From the NCBI RefSeq assembly GCF_001642725.1, contig NZ_LSUQ01000002.1, positions 1 to 64,000 on the forward strand: 64,000 nt of DNA, in the 5' to 3' direction. This document shows, one piece after another, positions 1 through 50,278 of the stretch. Source of the stretch: Ferroacidibacillus organovorans. GTDB taxonomy: Bacteria; Bacillota; Bacilli; Alicyclobacillales; SLC66. The position numbers were made by a program, and so were the translations under genes. A model generated the notes under the pieces. That model worked only from the letters and a program-made list of their open reading frames with translations. It was not told where the DNA came from and did not search any database. Each line of letters opens with the position of its first letter. Within the stretch, counting starts at the first letter, position 1.

Positions 1-165
1 AGCCTCAAATGCGATTCGTGTACCTCAGGTCGAGGGTTTGCCTAAAGCTTCCTTCAGATTCCACCTCGCGATGGACACCCTTGCTCTTGGCTAACGGTAG
101 GTCTGTCGCCAACCCCCGTTCGGGACTTGCACCCTAAAGATTCCGCCCATGCCGGGCGTACATCA
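1..165. other. Compact structured non-coding element, family not identified
   Basis: No open frame of substance covers this stretch. It can fold into several short stems: TCCA/TGGA (60-63 with 72-75), AACGG/CCGTT (93-97 with 116-120) and CGCCC/GGGCG (144-148 with 154-158), joined by single-stranded GGGACTTGCACC (121-132). The composition and spacing recall multicopy non-coding tails seen in Firmicutes genomes near mobile elements or as structured RNAs. I could not assign it to a family; HEARO/omega-RNA-like RNA or an IS end are the main candidates. It probably begins left of the window. From 197 to 308 I see only a possible weak promoter (TATAAA at 231-236) for the next gene. Confidence 0.35.
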
Positions 166-42788: not shown

Positions 42789-43235
42789 CTACATGTGATT
42801 GATCCCGATGCCAAGCGCCTCATGCTCCCACCCTTTGACGGGCGCGCCGATCGTGCCATAAAAAGCGACGGCGATCCACTCCCCTTCGTCAGGCGACGCA
42901 TAGGGCCTCCCACGCACAATCGAAAAGCGCAGCCCCACCGTTCGCAACTGTGCCCCAAACGAGACGACGCCGCGCCCCACACCCAGTAACGCTTCCATAA
43001 TCGCGTGATACAGCGCGTGTTCCTCGCGATACCGCTCTGAACTGATGATTCCATTTTTCTTCGCCGCCGTCTCCACTGCCGCAACAATCTTTTGCGAATC
43101 CATCGTGCCCACTCTACCCAGGGCCACCGTAAAGCCGCTCTCATCAAGCGCTTTGAGCAGGCGATCCTGCTCCTCTCCCTCACCGGAGAGTACGAGTAGC
43201 ATCGCCGCTTTACCGATTTGATTTTTAGGAAACAT
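42789..43235 (-). CDS. hutP: HutP, histidine-dependent RNA antiterminator
   Basis: 148 aa from the ATG at 43235 (GGGGTGG upstream), the same length as Bacillus HutP; a TTG at 43256 would add seven residues. HutP forms a hexamer that, with L-histidine and Mg2+, binds NAG triplets in the hut leader and prevents termination. Metal-binding histidines are kept in EEHALYHAIMEA and GWEHEALGIGINHM, and the core LRTVGLRFSIVRG, EWIAVAFYGTIGAPVKG is highly similar. Unlike Bacillus, where hutP is first in the operon, here it is last, 96 bases after hutH. Confidence 0.95.
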   Translation of the reverse strand: MFPKNQIGKAAMLLVLSGEGEEQDRLLKALDESGFTVALGRVGTMDSQKIVAAVETAAKKNGIISSERYREEHALYHAIMEALLGVGRGVVSFGAQLRTVGLRFSIVRGRPYASPDEGEWIAVAFYGTIGAPVKGWEHEALGIGINHM

Positions 43236-43331: not shown

Positions 43332-44819
43332 TCAGACAAACGATTGGCTGATCCAGTGGGCAAGACGCTCAATGTCTTCGGAATAGGCGCGATCCTGATC
43401 GATAAAAGGGACGCTCGCGCGAATCTGCTGATGCAGTTTGCGCGTTTTTGGCGCCAGTCGATCGACGCCGCGAAGATCGGCCGCCTGCGCGGCGCAAATT
43501 CCCTCGATGGCGAGCACCCGCCGAACATTATGGATGATCTGATGCGCGTGGCGTGCGCCGATCGTTCCCATACTCACGTGATCCTCCTGATTGGCCGAAG
43601 AGGGGATGGAATCCACGCTCGCCGGATGCGCCAACGTCTTGTTTTCTGATACCAACGATGCGGCAGCGTACTGTGTGATCATCAGTCCCGATTGAAGGCC
43701 TGGCTGTGGACTCAAAAAGGCTGGCAGATCATTTAGCTGCGGATTGACCAGACGCTCAATCCGGCGCTCGGAAATGTTGGCGAGCTCTGCCATCGCGATT
43801 CCGAGGAAATCCATCGCAAACGCGATGGGCTGCCCGTGGAAATTACCTCCGGATATCACGCGTCCAGTGTCTGAGAAAATGAGCGGGTTGTCGGTTGCAG
43901 CATTCATCTCAATGAGTAATTTCTCCTTGACATAAGTAAGTACCTGACGGATCGCTCCGTGCACCTGCGGAATACAGCGCAGCGAGTACGCATCCTGTAC
44001 GCGAATCTCTCCCTGTCTTGTCGTCAACTGGCTCCCTTCCACATATGAAAGCACCCGATCGGCAACCTCGCGCTGCTCAGGATAGGGGCGAACATCCTGC
44101 GCTTCTGGCGCGAACGCGTCAACGACACCGCGCAACGCCTCTAAAGTGAGCGCGGCGACGCCATCCGCAAATTCCGCCAGGCGCTCCGCCTCAAGGTAGG
44201 CGATCACGCCCACCGCGGTCATCGCCTGCGTGCCATTGATCAGCGCCAAACCTTCTTTTGCCTGCAGGCGAATCGGCGTCAGTCCCGCTTGCGAGAGCGC
44301 CTCCCCACCGCTCATCACTCTCCCGTCATAGTGCGCCTTGCCTTCGCCGATCAGCACGAGCGCCAAGTGAGCAAGCGGCGCCAGATCGCCACTCGCGCCG
44401 AGCGACCCTTGGCTCGGAATCACCGGATGGATTTGCTGGTTCAGGCAATCCACCAAGCGCTGCAATGTCTCTTTGCGACAGCCCGAGTAGCCTTTGGCAA
44501 GCGCGTTTGCGCGCAACAGCAGCATGGCGCGGCTGACTCTTTCTGAAAACGGATCGCCGATGCCACACGCGTGACTGCGGATCAGATTCAGTTGCAGCGC
44601 TTCAACGTCACCGACTGGAATCACAACGTCACTGAATTTGCCAAACCCTGTCGTGACACCATAGATCACGTTCCCCTCCGCGAGATTGCGCTCGACAACC
44701 GCTCTACTTTTCTCGATGTTTTGCCAGGCGTTCGGGTGAATCTCAACGGATTCAAAGTCGTACAGAACACGCGCCACCTGATCGAGGGTGAGTCCGTTTC
44801 CATCCAAATAAATCGTCAT
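43332..44819 (-). CDS. hutH: Histidine ammonia-lyase
   Basis: 495 aa. The MIO cofactor-forming Ala-Ser-Gly is in [13 protein letters not shown]. The N-terminal [10 protein letters not shown] and later [14 protein letters not shown] are family motifs. It converts histidine to urocanate and ammonia, the first step of the pathway. SD AGGAG is 8 bases before the ATG. A 207-base gap separates it from hutG and contains a promoter, a NAG-triplet site and a terminator hairpin, so hutH-hutP are a separately controlled unit. Confidence 0.97.
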
Positions 44820-44871: not shown

Positions 44872-44925
44872 AAAAAGATAGAGAGGACTAGAGCAAGAAA
44901 CCGAAGTTTCCTACCCTAGCCCCCT
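44872..44925 (-). terminator. Leader terminator hairpin upstream of hutH
   Basis: On the minus-strand RNA, 44925 to 44882 folds into a 20-bp stem (some G-U pairs) capped by a stable C(UUCG)G tetraloop, followed by CUAUCUUUUU. The 5' arm contains two UAG triplets. Its location in an untranslated leader, not after a gene, indicates attenuation, as in the Bacillus hut leader. Confidence 0.72.
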
Positions 44926-44971
44926 ACTCACACATCGCTATGGGCTGTTTTATCTCATCGCGTTCATTTCA

Positions 44972-44988
44972 CTCATGACTTGTGACTA
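44972..44988 (-). promoter_or_regulatory. HutP-type RNA site: three NAG triplets with 4-base spacers
   Basis: The leader RNA reads UAGUCACAAGUCAUGAG, that is UAG-N4-AAG-N4-GAG, the arrangement bound by HutP in Bacillus site I. It lies about 47 bases upstream of the leader hairpin. Further NAG triplets (CAG-N4-UAG at 44938-44947, and UAGs in the hairpin arm) could form a second site. Confidence 0.6.
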
Positions 44989-45001
44989 CCTACCTTGTTA
45001 A

Positions 45002-45030
45002 AACCTATGCCGCGCGCGGCGAATTGTCAA
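45002..45030 (-). promoter_or_regulatory. Sigma-A promoter of hutH-hutP
   Basis: TTGACA (45025-45030), 17 bases, then TAGGTT (45002-45007). The -35 overlaps the hutG stop codon. A start near 44995 would give a leader of about 175 bases. Confidence 0.55.
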
Positions 45031-45989
45031 ACGTTCGCACCTTTTGCGAGTGATTTTCCCGCTAAAAACGCCAAAAGGAGGTTTGTCGCCACACGCGTCG
45101 TAAAATCCCGCACGTCCTGCGCAGGATCGGCGCACACAAAATCAACGGCTTGAACGTTCGATTTTGCCCCGAGCCACTCCAGTGCCTCGAGCGCATCCCA
45201 GACCGTGAGACCACCCGGCCCCGGCGCCGGAACACCTGGCACGAAGCTCTGATCGAGCACATCCATGTCAAAGCTCACATACACGCCATCCGTCTCTTTG
45301 CTCACGTGAGCATACGCTTCTTCGAGCACCTGTGCGAGCCCCGTCCGAAACACCTGCCGCGCCGTCACAACCGTGACGCCTTCCTGCACAACATACGCGT
45401 GATACGCCTTTGCGTTCACGTAGTCGCGGATGCCGATTTGCACCACGTGTCTCCCGGCAATCGCGCCTGAGTCGAGCAATGTCCGAAACGGTGTGCCGTT
45501 GGAACGTCCGCCATCCTCCAGATTCCGCACGTCATGGTGCGCGTCAAAGTGAATGACCCCATACGTCCGCTTGGTGGCGCGCGTCAGTCCGAGCAGCGCA
45601 GCGCCTGTGATCGAGTGGTCACCGCCAAGTAGCACGAGCGGCTGTGCATGCGTCTCGCCATAAGAGTACACCGCATCTTCGATCCACTTCTGGCACAGTG
45701 CGAGATCCGTAAGATGCATCTGCACATTTCCGAGATCCGCAACGCGCAGTCGCTCGCTCAGATCCATTTGGTGATGGACACTGTACGGGCTGTAGCTGTG
45801 AAACAGCGCACGAATCGCGTCCGGAAGCCGGAAAGCGGCTGAGTGGCTGATCGATGTCTTACTGAGCGGCGCCCCGAGCAAGGCGATGTCAAACCTGCTC
45901 GCGCTGTCATACGGAAACACCCAATCCGCGACCTTCGGGTCAAGGCGATCGCGAAATCGCGAAAATGGAGGTTCAACACGTTGTATCAA
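45027..45989 (-). CDS. hutG: Formimidoylglutamase
   Basis: 320 aa from TTG 45989, which overlaps the hutI stop (TTGA) and has AAAGGTGG 7 bases upstream; the frame is open for 79 more codons inside hutI. It is an arginase-family Mn enzyme with GGDHSIT, HFDAHHDVRN and SFDMDVLDQSF. It cleaves formiminoglutamate to glutamate and formamide, the last step. The hut context separates it from arginase (rocF elsewhere in this window). Confidence 0.93.
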   Translation of the reverse strand: MIQRVEPPFSRFRDRLDPKVADWVFPYDSASRFDIALLGAPLSKTSISHSAAFRLPDAIRALFHSYSPYSVHHQMDLSERLRVADLGNVQMHLTDLALCQKWIEDAVYSYGETHAQPLVLLGGDHSITGAALLGLTRATKRTYGVIHFDAHHDVRNLEDGGRSNGTPFRTLLDSGAIAGRHVVQIGIRDYVNAKAYHAYVVQEGVTVVTARQVFRTGLAQVLEEAYAHVSKETDGVYVSFDMDVLDQSFVPGVPAPGPGGLTVWDALEALEWLGAKSNVQAVDFVCADPAQDVRDFTTRVATNLLLAFLAGKSLAKGANV

Positions 45990-47272
45990 AAGGGTACCAC
46001 CTTTCCATCTGTGACGACGATTCTCCCTTTTTTCACCACCGTATCGACGTGATTGATCCCAAAGTGATACGGAAGGTAGGCGAGATTTGGCGCGTGATAA
46101 AGGACAAGATCCGCCTGCTTGCCAACTTCCAGGCTGCCAATCTGATCCGCCCGTCCGATCGCGTGCGCCGCGTTGATTGTAAGCGCCGTGATTACCTCTT
46201 CTGGCGTCATCCGCAGATGAAGACACGCCAAGGTCATCACAAGTTGGAGTGACTCCGTCGGCGAACTCCCCGGGTTATAGTCGGTCGAAAGTGCGACTGA
46301 CACGCCCATCTCAATCATCGCGCGCGCCCGCGCGTGATTGGCCACACGCAGGTTAAACGAGGTGGCCGGCAGACAGACGGCGACGACACCCGCGCGCGCC
46401 ATCGCGTTCAGTCCTTCGTCAGTCGCCGCCAGCAGGTGTTCCGCAGAGATACAACCAAGCTCCGCCGCCAGTTCCGCGCCGCCCATCGATTCAATCTCGT
46501 CTGCGTGGATTTTCAGCCCGAACCCAAGCGTGCGCGCCGCGCGCAGGATCGCACGTGACTGCTCCACGGTGAACACGCCGTGCTCGCAAAACACGTCACA
46601 AAACTCCGCGAGGCCAAGCCGTTTGATCTCGGGAAGCATCGTGTCGATCACGGTCGACACATACGCGTCCGCGCGCTCCTTGTACTCAGTAGGCACCGCG
46701 TGCGCGCCCATGAATGTTGACACCACGTCGACCGCGTGCGTCTCTTGCAAACGCTTTGCGACGCGCAGTTGTTTCAGTTCATCCTCGAGCGTGAGGCCAT
46801 ACCCACTTTTCGCCTCGACCGTCGTCGCGCCATAAAGCAGCATCGTGTCAAGACTCTTTTTTGCCTTCACATAGAGTTCATCCTCTGTCGCCGCGCGCGT
46901 CATTTCCACCGTGCTAAGGATTCCTCCGCCTTGCGCCAGAATCTCTAAGTAGGTTACACCCCGTAACTTTAGCGCAAGCTCGTGCTCCCGCGATCCGCCG
47001 TGCACGAGGTGTGTGTGCGGATCGATAAGACCTGGCGTCACCAGCCGCCCCTGCGCGTCCAGTTCTTGCAAAATCGCGCGCCCTGCGATCTGATCGCGCA
47101 CATCCTCCTCGCGCCCTGCCGCGAGGATCAAGCCATCGCCAATCGCCACGGCGCCGCCTGCGACCGCGCCGATTTCTGCCATGCTCGCACCTGAGCGCGG
47201 ACCTGGCCCTCCGCGCATCGTGATCAGCGTCCCGACATTGTGCACCAGCAGGTCCACTGCGCCTTCTGCCAC
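45986..47272 (-). CDS. hutI: Imidazolonepropionase
   Basis: 428 aa from GTG 47272 with GGGAGG 7 bases upstream. An amidohydrolase with metal-binding PHTHLVHGGSREHE, later HADEI and ALSTDYNPGSSP. It opens imidazolonepropionate to formiminoglutamate. It lies 16 bases after hutU, and its end overlaps the hutG start. Confidence 0.96.
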   Translation of the reverse strand: MAEGAVDLLVHNVGTLITMRGGPGPRSGASMAEIGAVAGGAVAIGDGLILAAGREEDVRDQIAGRAILQELDAQGRLVTPGLIDPHTHLVHGGSREHELALKLRGVTYLEILAQGGGILSTVEMTRAATEDELYVKAKKSLDTMLLYGATTVEAKSGYGLTLEDELKQLRVAKRLQETHAVDVVSTFMGAHAVPTEYKERADAYVSTVIDTMLPEIKRLGLAEFCDVFCEHGVFTVEQSRAILRAARTLGFGLKIHADEIESMGGAELAAELGCISAEHLLAATDEGLNAMARAGVVAVCLPATSFNLRVANHARARAMIEMGVSVALSTDYNPGSSPTESLQLVMTLACLHLRMTPEEVITALTINAAHAIGRADQIGSLEVGKQADLVLYHAPNLAYLPYHFGINHVDTVVKKGRIVVTDGKVVPF

Positions 47273-47288
47273 GTTCTTCCCTCCCGTC

Positions 47289-48962
47289 TCAGATCCCAAG
47301 CATTGGAACGCGCACCCCACGCTCCTTTGCCACGTCGATCGCCTTCTCGTACCCAGCGTCCGCATGCCGGATGATCCCCATGCCAGGGTCTGTCGTCAAC
47401 ACGCGCGACAATCGTTCGTCCGCCTCATCGGTTCCATCGGCCACGACCACCATTCCGGCGTGCAGCGAATAACCCATCCCGACGCCCCCGCCGTGGTGAA
47501 ACGAGACCCAACTCGCGCCAGAAGCGGTGTTCACAAGTGCGTTCAAAACGGCCCAGTCGGCCACCGCGTCGCTGCCATCCTTCATCGCCTCTGTTTCACG
47601 ATTGGGCGAGGCGACCGATCCGCAGTCCAGATGGTCGCGGCCAATCACGATCGGGGCCAGCAACTCGCCATTTCGCACCATCTCGTTGATCGCGAGACCA
47701 AACTTCATCCGCTCGCCATAGCCAAGCCAGCAGATTCGGGCTGGCAGTCCCTGAAACGCCACTTTTTCACGAGCGAGCTTGATCCAACGGTGAAGCGCCT
47801 CATTCTCAGGAAAGAGCTTTAGCACCAATTCATCCGTTTTTTCGATATCGCGCGGGTCGCCAGAAAGTGCCGCCCAACGAAACGGCCCTTTGCCCTCGCA
47901 AAAAAGCGGTCGAATGTACGCGGGAACAAAGCCTGGAAAAGAAAACGCGTCCTGCACGCCTTCGTCAAACGCCACCTGCCGGATGTTATTGCCATAGTCA
48001 AAAACGACCGAACCCATCCTCTTGAAATCAAGCATCGCCTGCACGTGCGTTGCCATCGCCTTTTTCGCGAGCGCCACATATGCTTTTGGGTCGCTTTTGC
48101 GAAGTTCTGCCGCCGCGTCAAGCGTATATCCGACAGGAATGTAGCCGTTGAGTGGATCGTGCGCCGACGTTTGATCTGTCACAAAATCCGGCACAATACC
48201 GCGGCGAACCATCTCCGGCAAAACTTCAGCCGCGTTGCCGACAAGTCCGATTGAGAGCGGCTCCCCTCTCTCCTGTGCGGCGCGCGCGCGCGAAAGCGCC
48301 TCATCCAGATCATGCACAAGCACGTCACAGTAGCGCGTCTCGACACGACGCTTGATGCGCGACGGGTCGATCTCAACCCCGATGAACACACCTTCATTCA
48401 TGGTGACGGCAAGCGGTTGCGCGCCGCCCATTCCGCCAAGTCCGGCGCTCAGCGTAAGCGTCCCTCTAAGCGTGCCCCCGCTGTGCTGGCGCGCCGCTTC
48501 CGCGAATGTCTCGTAAGTGCCTTGGAGGATGCCTTGACTACCAATATAGATCCAGCTTCCCGCGGTCATCTGGCCGAACATGATGAGTCCCTTTTGATCC
48601 AATTCGTGAAACGTCTCCCAGTTCGCGAATGCCGGCACCAACACGGAATTCGAAAGGAGCACGCGCGGCGCGTGGCGGTGCGTGCGAAAGACGCCCACCG
48701 GTTTCCCAGATTGGATCAAGAGGGTTTCATCCGCCTCAAGATCGCGCAGGCACTCCACAATCTTGTCAAAGCTTGCCCAGTTTCGCGCGGCTTTTCCAAT
48801 TCCGCCGTACACGACGAGATCTTCGGGGCGTTCCGCCACCTCCGGGTCAAGGTTGTTCATCAGCATCCGCAATACCGCCTCTTGCTGCCAGCCTTTTGCG
48901 CTGATCTCCGTTCCGCGCGGCGCTCGAATGACGCGCGCTGTCGATGTCAATCCATCACTCAT
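47289..48962 (-). CDS. hutU: Urocanate hydratase
   Basis: 557 aa from the ATG at 48962 (AAGGAG 9 bases upstream), near the usual 552. The NAD-dependent enzyme converts urocanate to imidazolonepropionate. Motifs include [16 protein letters not shown], the NAD loop [15 protein letters not shown] and [14 protein letters not shown] near the active site. First gene of the hutU-I-G unit, 114 bases after the AraC regulator. A cre-like site lies just upstream. Confidence 0.97.
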
Positions 48963-49007
48963 GTCTTCCGTCTCCTTTGCCATGCGAACGTATAATCCCA
49001 TCGTACG

Positions 49008-49021
49008 CGGAAACGCTTACA
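49008..49021 (-). promoter_or_regulatory. cre-like site upstream of hutU
   Basis: TGTAAGCGTTTCCG matches the cre consensus except at two positions near the 3' end. Carbon repression of hut genes by CcpA is known in Bacillus. The site is 46 bases before the hutU start. Confidence 0.4.
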
Positions 49022-49075
49022 CAAAAACGGTCGCGGATTGTTCTTTCCTAGCACAATCTTGCGGTCGTTCACGTC

Positions 49076-50278
49076 TCAGACCGCGTGCGCAGCCCGATAC
49101 GCTTTGGGCGTACAGCCGTATTCCTTTTTGAACATCCTGCCAAAATAGTTTGCGTCAGAAAACCCCGCAAGCGTTGCGATCTGTTGCAGGGAGAGGGTCG
49201 AGGAGGTGAGATAAAAAGCGGCTTTTTCAAGTCGAATGCGGCGAACGTAGTCCATCACGCTAAGGCCTACCTCCTGCTTGAAGCGATGGCTGAGATGATA
49301 CTTGCTAAGACACGCCACCTTTGCAATCTGATCAAGGGTCAAGGGGTCCTGGTGGTGGTGATGGATATACTGAAGCGCATCGCGAATCACTGGCGAACAC
49401 GCCGACATTCGCGAAGTGTCAACACGTGACGTAAGCCACTGCGCATACGCCAGGACATGGCCGACAAACGTGTCGTAGCGAATGGTCTGATAGAGGTCGT
49501 GGACAAACCGGGCATTCTTTGAGAGGATTTCCGCCGCGCTGATCCCCGCGTTAACGACCTCTCGCGACATCTGCATCAGCAGATCAATGACTTCCGATTT
49601 GAAGCCCTCAACCTTCCTCTGGCAATCCTCCGCCAGTCGCAAAAGGATCATCGGCACCAAGACGCTGACGCCGCGCACATCCCCAAGCTTTACGCGCGCG
49701 ATCAATTCGAGCTTTTCTTCCGCGCGCAATGGATTTGGCACAACGCCAACATCCTGTACGTCGCACGCGCGGTAAAGCTGCTGATTGCCCTGAAAGAATC
49801 GCCCGCTCATCGCGCGCAGCGCTTCTTGATACGCGCGACGCAATTGAAGTGGCTCCGCGCAGAGCGCGCTGATGCCGATTGACACAGCGAGATCACGCGC
49901 TGCAAGCGCATGCTGAAGTAGCTTTGCAGTCTGTGTCACGCGTGCCTCGGTATGAAGGAGCTGCGATCCGCACGCGTGATCCATCTGAAAAAGCACCACG
50001 AGCACGCCTTCTTCTGTCCAGATGCAGGTGGTTGGCACGCCTTCGCGCGCCATGGTGTTAGCAACCGTCTCGCGCAGCGCGTGACCGACCTCTTTAGGCC
50101 ACGAAGGCGGATACTCGTTGACTCGCTGTGGGTAGCGGTCGATCGACACGATGAAGATCCCGTTTGGGCAAAGCGAGATGCCACACGCTTCTTGCAGCTT
50201 TGCGAAGTCCCCTTCGTGAACAAACGTTCCTGAGATCAACCCGTGCGCAAACGCAATCTCCGCGTGACGCATCTCCAC
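49076..50278 (-). CDS. AraC-family transcriptional regulator beside hut genes
   Basis: 400 aa from GTG 50278 (AGAGGTG upstream). The C-terminal about 100 residues hold the double helix-turn-helix (LTLDQIAKVACLSKYHLSHR, LSLQQIATLAGFSDANYFGRM). The first 290 residues have no receiver domain. They resemble the variable sensor/GGDEF-like middle of YesN-type regulators. It is upstream of and codirectional with hutU, so control of hutU-I-G is likely, perhaps with urocanate or histidine as signal. This would be a second control layer besides HutP. Confidence 0.8.
   Translation of the reverse strand: MEMRHAEIAFAHGLISGTFVHEGDFAKLQEACGISLCPNGIFIVSIDRYPQRVNEYPPSWPKEVGHALRETVANTMAREGVPTTCIWTEEGVLVVLFQMDHACGSQLLHTEARVTQTAKLLQHALAARDLAVSIGISALCAEPLQLRRAYQEALRAMSGRFFQGNQQLYRACDVQDVGVVPNPLRAEEKLELIARVKLGDVRGVSVLVPMILLRLAEDCQRKVEGFKSEVIDLLMQMSREVVNAGISAAEILSKNARFVHDLYQTIRYDTFVGHVLAYAQWLTSRVDTSRMSACSPVIRDALQYIHHHHQDPLTLDQIAKVACLSKYHLSHRFKQEVGLSVMDYVRRIRLEKAAFYLTSSTLSLQQIATLAGFSDANYFGRMFKKEYGCTPKAYRAAHAV

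Follow-up and report, generated by a model that had tools for sequence, protein, structure and literature searches.

A HutP-type antitermination leader ahead of hutH-hutP in Ferroacidibacillus organovorans, probably with hutP in a positive feedback loop

The closest described counterpart of the locus analysed here is the hut operon of the Bacillus subtilis type, in which hutP stands ahead of a terminator, hutH follows directly behind it, and hutU, hutI and hutG come after hutH. Background on HutP was taken from passages of PMC7430163, PMC12456014, PMC4225672 and PMC8934654, and those of the last describe HutP as binding the terminator repeats directly and not a structured element; in the passages drawn from PMC4448311, hutP is a table entry only. 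Within the minor part of the HutP papers that our search covered, we did not find hutP described behind its own attenuator.

The hut locus and its gene order

The window is a stretch of 64,000 nucleotides from F. organovorans (positions 1 to 64,000 of contig NZ_LSUQ01000002.1). Its minus strand carries, in order, an AraC-type gene, hutU, hutI, hutG, a 207-nt gap, hutH and hutP, and the next gene after hutP is a convergent MFS transporter gene. The coding features and the upstream control region are:

42789..43235, minus strand: hutP, last gene of the hutH-hutP unit (Pfam PF09021, 115 bits; 1wmq, E 5.8e-52)
43332..44819, minus strand: hutH, histidine ammonia-lyase (Pfam PF00221, 672 bits)
45027..48962, minus strand: hutU, hutI and hutG, upstream of the leader (Pfam; same order in four relatives)
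48966..49075, minus strand: putative control region before hutU, with the invariant CAAGATTGTGCTA and the cre-like TGTAAGCGTTTCC (five of five genomes)
49079..50278, minus strand: AraC-type regulator gene beside hutU (Pfam HTH_18 and GGDEF_2)

The identities of hutP and hutH are firm, and that of HutP is certain: it scores above the Pfam cut-off and matches the crystallised HutP (1wmq). A genome profile search gives a single copy. Its residues His72, His76 and His137, presumably those that bind ligand and metal, are invariant in an alignment of 12 HutPs. Rfam at gathering score left the leader unmatched, and its sole match in the window is a piece of a group II intron (RF02001, 64 bits; the intron end at 1-75, minus strand) at the window edge.

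HutP occurs in six of the 59 genomes of the order Alicyclobacillales, and five of them share the order araC-hutU-I-G-leader-hutH-hutP: the window genome, G042 of the same genus, and G018, G019 (Alicyclobacillus ferrooxydans) and G020 (A. mengziensis) of another family. A first-pass annotation of this DNA had called the operon rearranged, with hutH-hutP as a downstream unit, and the recurrence of the order bears this out. The HutPs of these five form one clade (98/87), so that one event would be enough to account for the rearrangement in the Alicyclobacillales lineage. In the sixth genome (G026), the two genes share a strand, hutP being about 2.7 kb upstream of hutH, and hutH is preceded by an element that resembles the leader (28.2 bits). 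When the five rearranged genomes are aligned, CAAGATTGTGCTA forms 13 consecutive invariant columns before hutU, and the cre-like TGTAAGCGTTTCC is found before hutU in all five. The araC gene is at the locus in four relatives, though truncated in G019 where the piece ends, and is tied to hut through its position only; judged from these sequences, hutU-I-G are likely to be under separate control of AraC/CcpA type.

Gene order outside this group was surveyed in two overlapping samples. A scan of named genomes with the HutP alignment gave 394 relatives, of which the best 80 were used: hutP is upstream of hutH in 75, no hutH is on the piece in three, and hutH precedes hutP in two, which are the two Alicyclobacillus. 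Four of these 75 loci (L045, L052, L087 and L093) have the order hutU-I-G-P-H, a possible intermediate. The terminator of the Bacillus-type loci stands behind hutP and ahead of hutH, opening with GCC(C/T)AUAG-N4-NAG-N4-NAG-GGGGC; the first-pass annotation had put the Bacillus site upstream of hutP, where we found no consistent terminator, and the 75 of the best 80 contradict it on this point.

The separate sample of 398 Bacilli genomes contains 48 with a HutP match. The gene stands directly before hutH in 39 of them and before it at a distance in one (G026); hutH precedes hutP in two (the window genome and G219), no hutH is on the piece in three (G132, G341 and G372), a HutP-like protein lies outside a hut locus in two (G065 and G118), and one match (G135) falls below the Pfam cut-off. 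In G219, from another family of the class, CAG-N4-CAG-N4-CAG is followed by a hairpin with a U-run, hutH and then hutP. Its leader scores 21.9 bits in the covariance model R2 described below, the branch leading to its HutP is very long, and it is the only one of 23 genomes of its family with HutP; this placement of hutP behind the leader is probably a second, separate event. The HutP-family proteins of G065 (L012) and G118 (L029/L160) are away from hut genes and lack several HutP-invariant columns, and they appear to be a paralogous HutP family. G372 has a leader (L150:3840-3904, minus strand) and hutH about 3 Mb from hutP (L145:4173-4703, plus strand), so that HutP would have to act there in trans, if the switch works.

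Architecture of the leader

The gap between hutG and hutH and its borders hold the following features:

44872..44925, minus strand: predicted intrinsic terminator, a 20-pair hairpin (44925-44882) with UUCG loop and U-rich tail (fold; the homologous stem covaries)
44924..44947, minus strand: predicted HutP site CAG-CCCA-UAG-CGAU-GUG-UGAG-UAG, overlapping the hairpin foot (aligned with 75 Bacillus-type leaders; model R2)
44918..44946, minus strand: competing helix, AGCCC (44946-44942) with GGGCU (44922-44918), its loop holding the NAG slots (covariation)
44972..44988, minus strand: 5' NAG cluster UAG-UCAC-AAG-UCAU-GAG (counterparts after the promoter in four relatives and in Bacillus-type loci)
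45002..45030, minus strand: promoter-like TTGACA-N17-TAGGTT, with the hutG stop codon within the -35 (sequence and counterparts in relatives)

The first-pass annotation had listed TTGACA-N17-TAGGTT, UAG-N4-AAG-N4-GAG, further NAG triplets and a 20-bp UUCG hairpin with a U-run, and all are present on the minus strand where it had put them. The hairpin is followed by CTATCTTTTT, in which the U-run is interrupted, and stands directly before hutH. Folding, which had been proposed as a check, gives -34 kcal/mol for 44949-44872 (minus strand; z = -4.3, equalled by 0 of 200 shuffles). The motif followed by a hairpin and a U-rich tail is present in all 80 leader units compared (five rearranged and 75 Bacillus-type from the best 80 of 394); since the motif position was taken as the best match to the consensus, the hairpin is the stricter criterion. 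The terminator helix covaries: in 44 leaders (five rearranged and 39 others), 95.4% of cells are paired, against 43-64% when the strands are slid, and double changes occur at 11 of 15 pairs. An alignment of this gap in relatives had been another check proposed, and both NAG clusters prove to be conserved.

At the hairpin foot the window reads CAG-CCCA-UAG-CGAU-GUG-UGAG-UAG-GGGG where the Bacillus-type leaders have their GCC(C/T)AUAG motif; GUG takes the place of NAG in one slot, and the other triplets are in register with 4-nt spacers. All three loop NAGs are intact in none of the five rearranged leaders, against 67 of the 75 Bacillus-type leaders from the best 80 of 394 when spacers of N4-N6 are allowed (44 of 75 with strict N4 spacing), and the two genera of rearranged leaders lack different slots. 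One might speculate that a weaker site sets the threshold of the feedback loop, or that the neighbouring 5' cluster compensates.

The GCCC of the motif can pair with a GGGC that is part of the 5' strand of the terminator itself, and the resulting helix competes with the terminator. In the same 44 leaders this competing helix has 90.3% of cells paired, a share that drops to 30-64% when the strands are slid, and four of five pairs show double changes; shuffles matched it in 6 of 500 cases for the percentage paired, in 0 of 500 for the covariation score and in 119 of 500 for the number of pair types. A larger, model-fitted alignment of 97 distinct rows (108 matches minus 6 antisense and 5 duplicates) has the inner four pairs formed in 95, 96, 97 and 96 rows and the outermost in 61%, and the changes seen in several families include GACCC/GGGTC, AACCC/GGGTT, AGTCC/GGACT and GCCT/AGGC. 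As a bare loop the helix is weak alone (-5.8 kcal/mol), whereas the terminator reaches about -30 kcal/mol. Because this covarying helix competes with the terminator and its loop holds the NAG slots, the alignments suggest an antiterminator that HutP would lock, and the helix bears on how HutP prevents termination.

The promoter-like element consists of TTGACA (45030-45025), a 17-nt spacer and TAGGTT (45007-45002) on the minus strand. Counterparts stand in the same place in G042 (TTGACA-N17-TAGGGT) and in G018, G019 and G020 (TTGACG-N17-TATTCT-type). The -10-like TAGGTT is poor, with three of six matches to TATAAT, and the element was absent from the list returned by our promoter scan. Downstream of it, UAG-UCAC-AAG-UCAU-GAG is the sole strict NAG-N4-NAG-N4-NAG run in the hutG-hutH gap. 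Such runs number 12 on the entire 64-kb minus strand, and because chance alone would put one into about 4% of 200-nt stretches, the run is suggestive when taken alone and becomes convincing solely through its conservation. Of all 75 Bacillus-type loci (from the best 80 of 394), 45 have a strict run within the 150 nt that precede the HutP match, on which the count was anchored, whereas eight other offsets give 0-3 of 74-75 loci and all tiles together 277 of 6952; judged by eye, the Bacillus-type cluster is directly 3' of the -10, near the mRNA 5' end. The window and G042 each have three NAG triplets in register there, G018 and G020 have two, and G019 has four. Since the rearranged leaders retain NAGs there though hutP has moved away, the 5' cluster would be part of the leader and not of the hutP gene. 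The first-pass annotation had taken this very run as the leader site: the run exists and is conserved, but it is the 5' cluster, and the site at the hairpin foot had been given only as extra NAGs. The two clusters (44988-44972 and 44947-44924) are 24 nt apart in the window; for B. subtilis the passages of PMC7430163 give 20 nt, a distance that may concern other clusters.

The 5' cluster might instead act as DNA, as an operator for CodY or another regulator close to where transcription begins, with only the terminator-proximal site acting through HutP. We consider this doubtful, with a modest chance of being right: in Bacillus-type loci no more than about 20 nt separate the cluster from the -10, and hutP is under AbrB, CodY and CcpA control according to passages of PMC4225672, but its NAGs have the 7-nt period of the HutP site and keep it where the intervening letters differ.

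The leader model and its co-occurrence with HutP

Model R2 is a covariance model made from 39 of the 75 Bacillus-type leaders, chosen for diversity, with no rearranged leader included, and it detects all five rearranged leaders over its full length. The window leader, before hutH, matches at full length with 38.5 bits (E 2.1e-6 for its genome), and with its retention in relatives this upholds the earlier assignment of a HutP-type antitermination leader before hutH-hutP. The best R2 score in a HutP-free genome, 37.2 bits, is just below that of the window; the score alone would not settle the identity of the leader, which position and conservation do. Elsewhere in the window genome the search found no further HutP elements beyond chance.

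Across the 398 genomes, the element and HutP occur together in 34, the element only in nine, HutP only in 14 and neither in 341 (Fisher p about 1e-29, relatedness being ignored). Nine of the 43 genomes with the element are thus HutP-free, as are G043 and G044, which also have it, and all their scores are at most 37.2 bits. No hut gene lies near the element within the pieces of six of the nine, G043 and G044 (L152-L159). We considered these elements as HutP leaders and, with such scores and no hut gene on the piece, took them to be unrelated hairpins. The leader model, supported by covariation where Rfam has no match at gathering score, can be used to find HutP-controlled genes.

Several loci hold a second HutP-type leader upstream, with 43-47 bits on the plus strand (L053:935-1026, L057:970-1062, L061:1025-1117 and L068:969-1061). 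The one in L053 precedes genes that, judged by eye, encode a peptide-binding protein, two permeases and a pair of ABC ATPases, immediately upstream of hutP, possibly a HutP-controlled peptide-transporter-like operon. Another second leader, upstream of hutP in L059 (4761-4840, plus strand; 47 bits), stands before a glutamate dehydrogenase gene (identified by eye), whose product could be a HutP-controlled step after histidine breakdown. In G019, about 560 nt of TTAAGTCG/CGACTTAA repeats (L010:5400-5960) separate the terminator from hutH.

The proposed circuit and known systems

We propose that transcription of the hutH-hutP unit begins just downstream of hutG and, when histidine is lacking, would be stopped by the 20-pair hairpin before it reaches hutH. 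With histidine and Mg2+, which HutP of Bacillus requires, HutP would bind the NAGs at the hairpin foot, probably along with the 5' cluster, and allow read-through; HutP on the loop would lock the AGCCC/GGGCU helix and so block the terminator, part of whose 5' strand is shared. Read-through would yield more HutP and close a positive feedback loop, as hutP is last in the unit behind the terminator and without a visible promoter of its own. We hold it probable that this is a HutP-histidine antitermination leader for hutH-hutP with hutP in positive feedback. Its anatomy, homology, conservation and covariation support this reading, and from them we infer HutP binding, termination, the role of the competing helix and feedback. 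A switch placed before the gene for its own sensor probably makes histidine breakdown self-reinforcing.

Feedback would be lost if hutP had its own promoter, in hutH or in the 96-nt gap between the genes, such that HutP was constitutive and the same attenuator switched only hutH. Bacillus does make HutP ahead of the switch, and the gap, which is longer in G042 and G019, leaves room for a promoter; against this, the best matches before hutP in the five rearranged genomes (7-9 of 12) are no better than shuffles (reached by 38-198 of 200), and in G020 hutP overlaps or abuts hutH. We therefore regard it as unlikely. That the hairpin is an ordinary terminator merely ending the hutU-I-G transcript, with hutH-hutP transcribed from a later promoter or constitutively and the NAGs there by chance, is very improbable, for although a hairpin downstream of hutG would also stop hutU transcripts and isolated NAG-N4 triples are fairly common, all five genomes have, at the same position ahead of hutH, an element that matches the full length of the Bacillus hut leader, and a promoter-like element and a NAG cluster stand between hutG and the hairpin.

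Tentatively, the feedback reading can be widened, to a proposal that we would not yet back at even chances. HutP leaders would be two-state RNAs, in which the NAG-ringed HutP closes the covarying GCCC/GGGC helix and so shuts out the terminator, with the other NAG cluster, at the 5' end of the mRNA, also taking part. In Alicyclobacillales, and in a separate event in one or more further lineages, hutP would have come to lie downstream of the switch that it opens, so that a histidine response that had been graded became autocatalytic and possibly bistable, with hutU-I-G under separate AraC/cre-type control. The mechanism itself is known; hutP behind its own attenuator, probably in two lineages, would be a new circuit variant as far as we have found. 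The two arrangements make a natural circuit pair, with a shared switch and the sensor gene inside or outside the loop, in which the effect of feedback on an amino-acid response is testable.

The window and the Bacillus subtilis-type hut operon share a HutP (59-64% identity to that of the window over most rows compared), the GCC(C/T)AUAG-N4-NAG-N4-NAG motif that leads into a terminator immediately upstream of hutH, and a 5' NAG cluster after the promoter. They differ in that hutP is outside the loop in Bacillus and behind the terminator in the window, in that hutU-I-G precede the leader in the window and have another control region, and in the one degenerate NAG slot of the window site. The G219 locus likewise has NAG-N4 repeats running into a hairpin with a U-run, then hutH and hutP, but a transporter-like gene lies upstream and hutU-I-G are absent there. 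Several systems of the BglG/SacY/LicT type also control their own gene. If the competing helix of the window is real, it would share with them a protein-controlled antiterminator helix set against a terminator, although their protein family and RNA target are unrelated to those of HutP.
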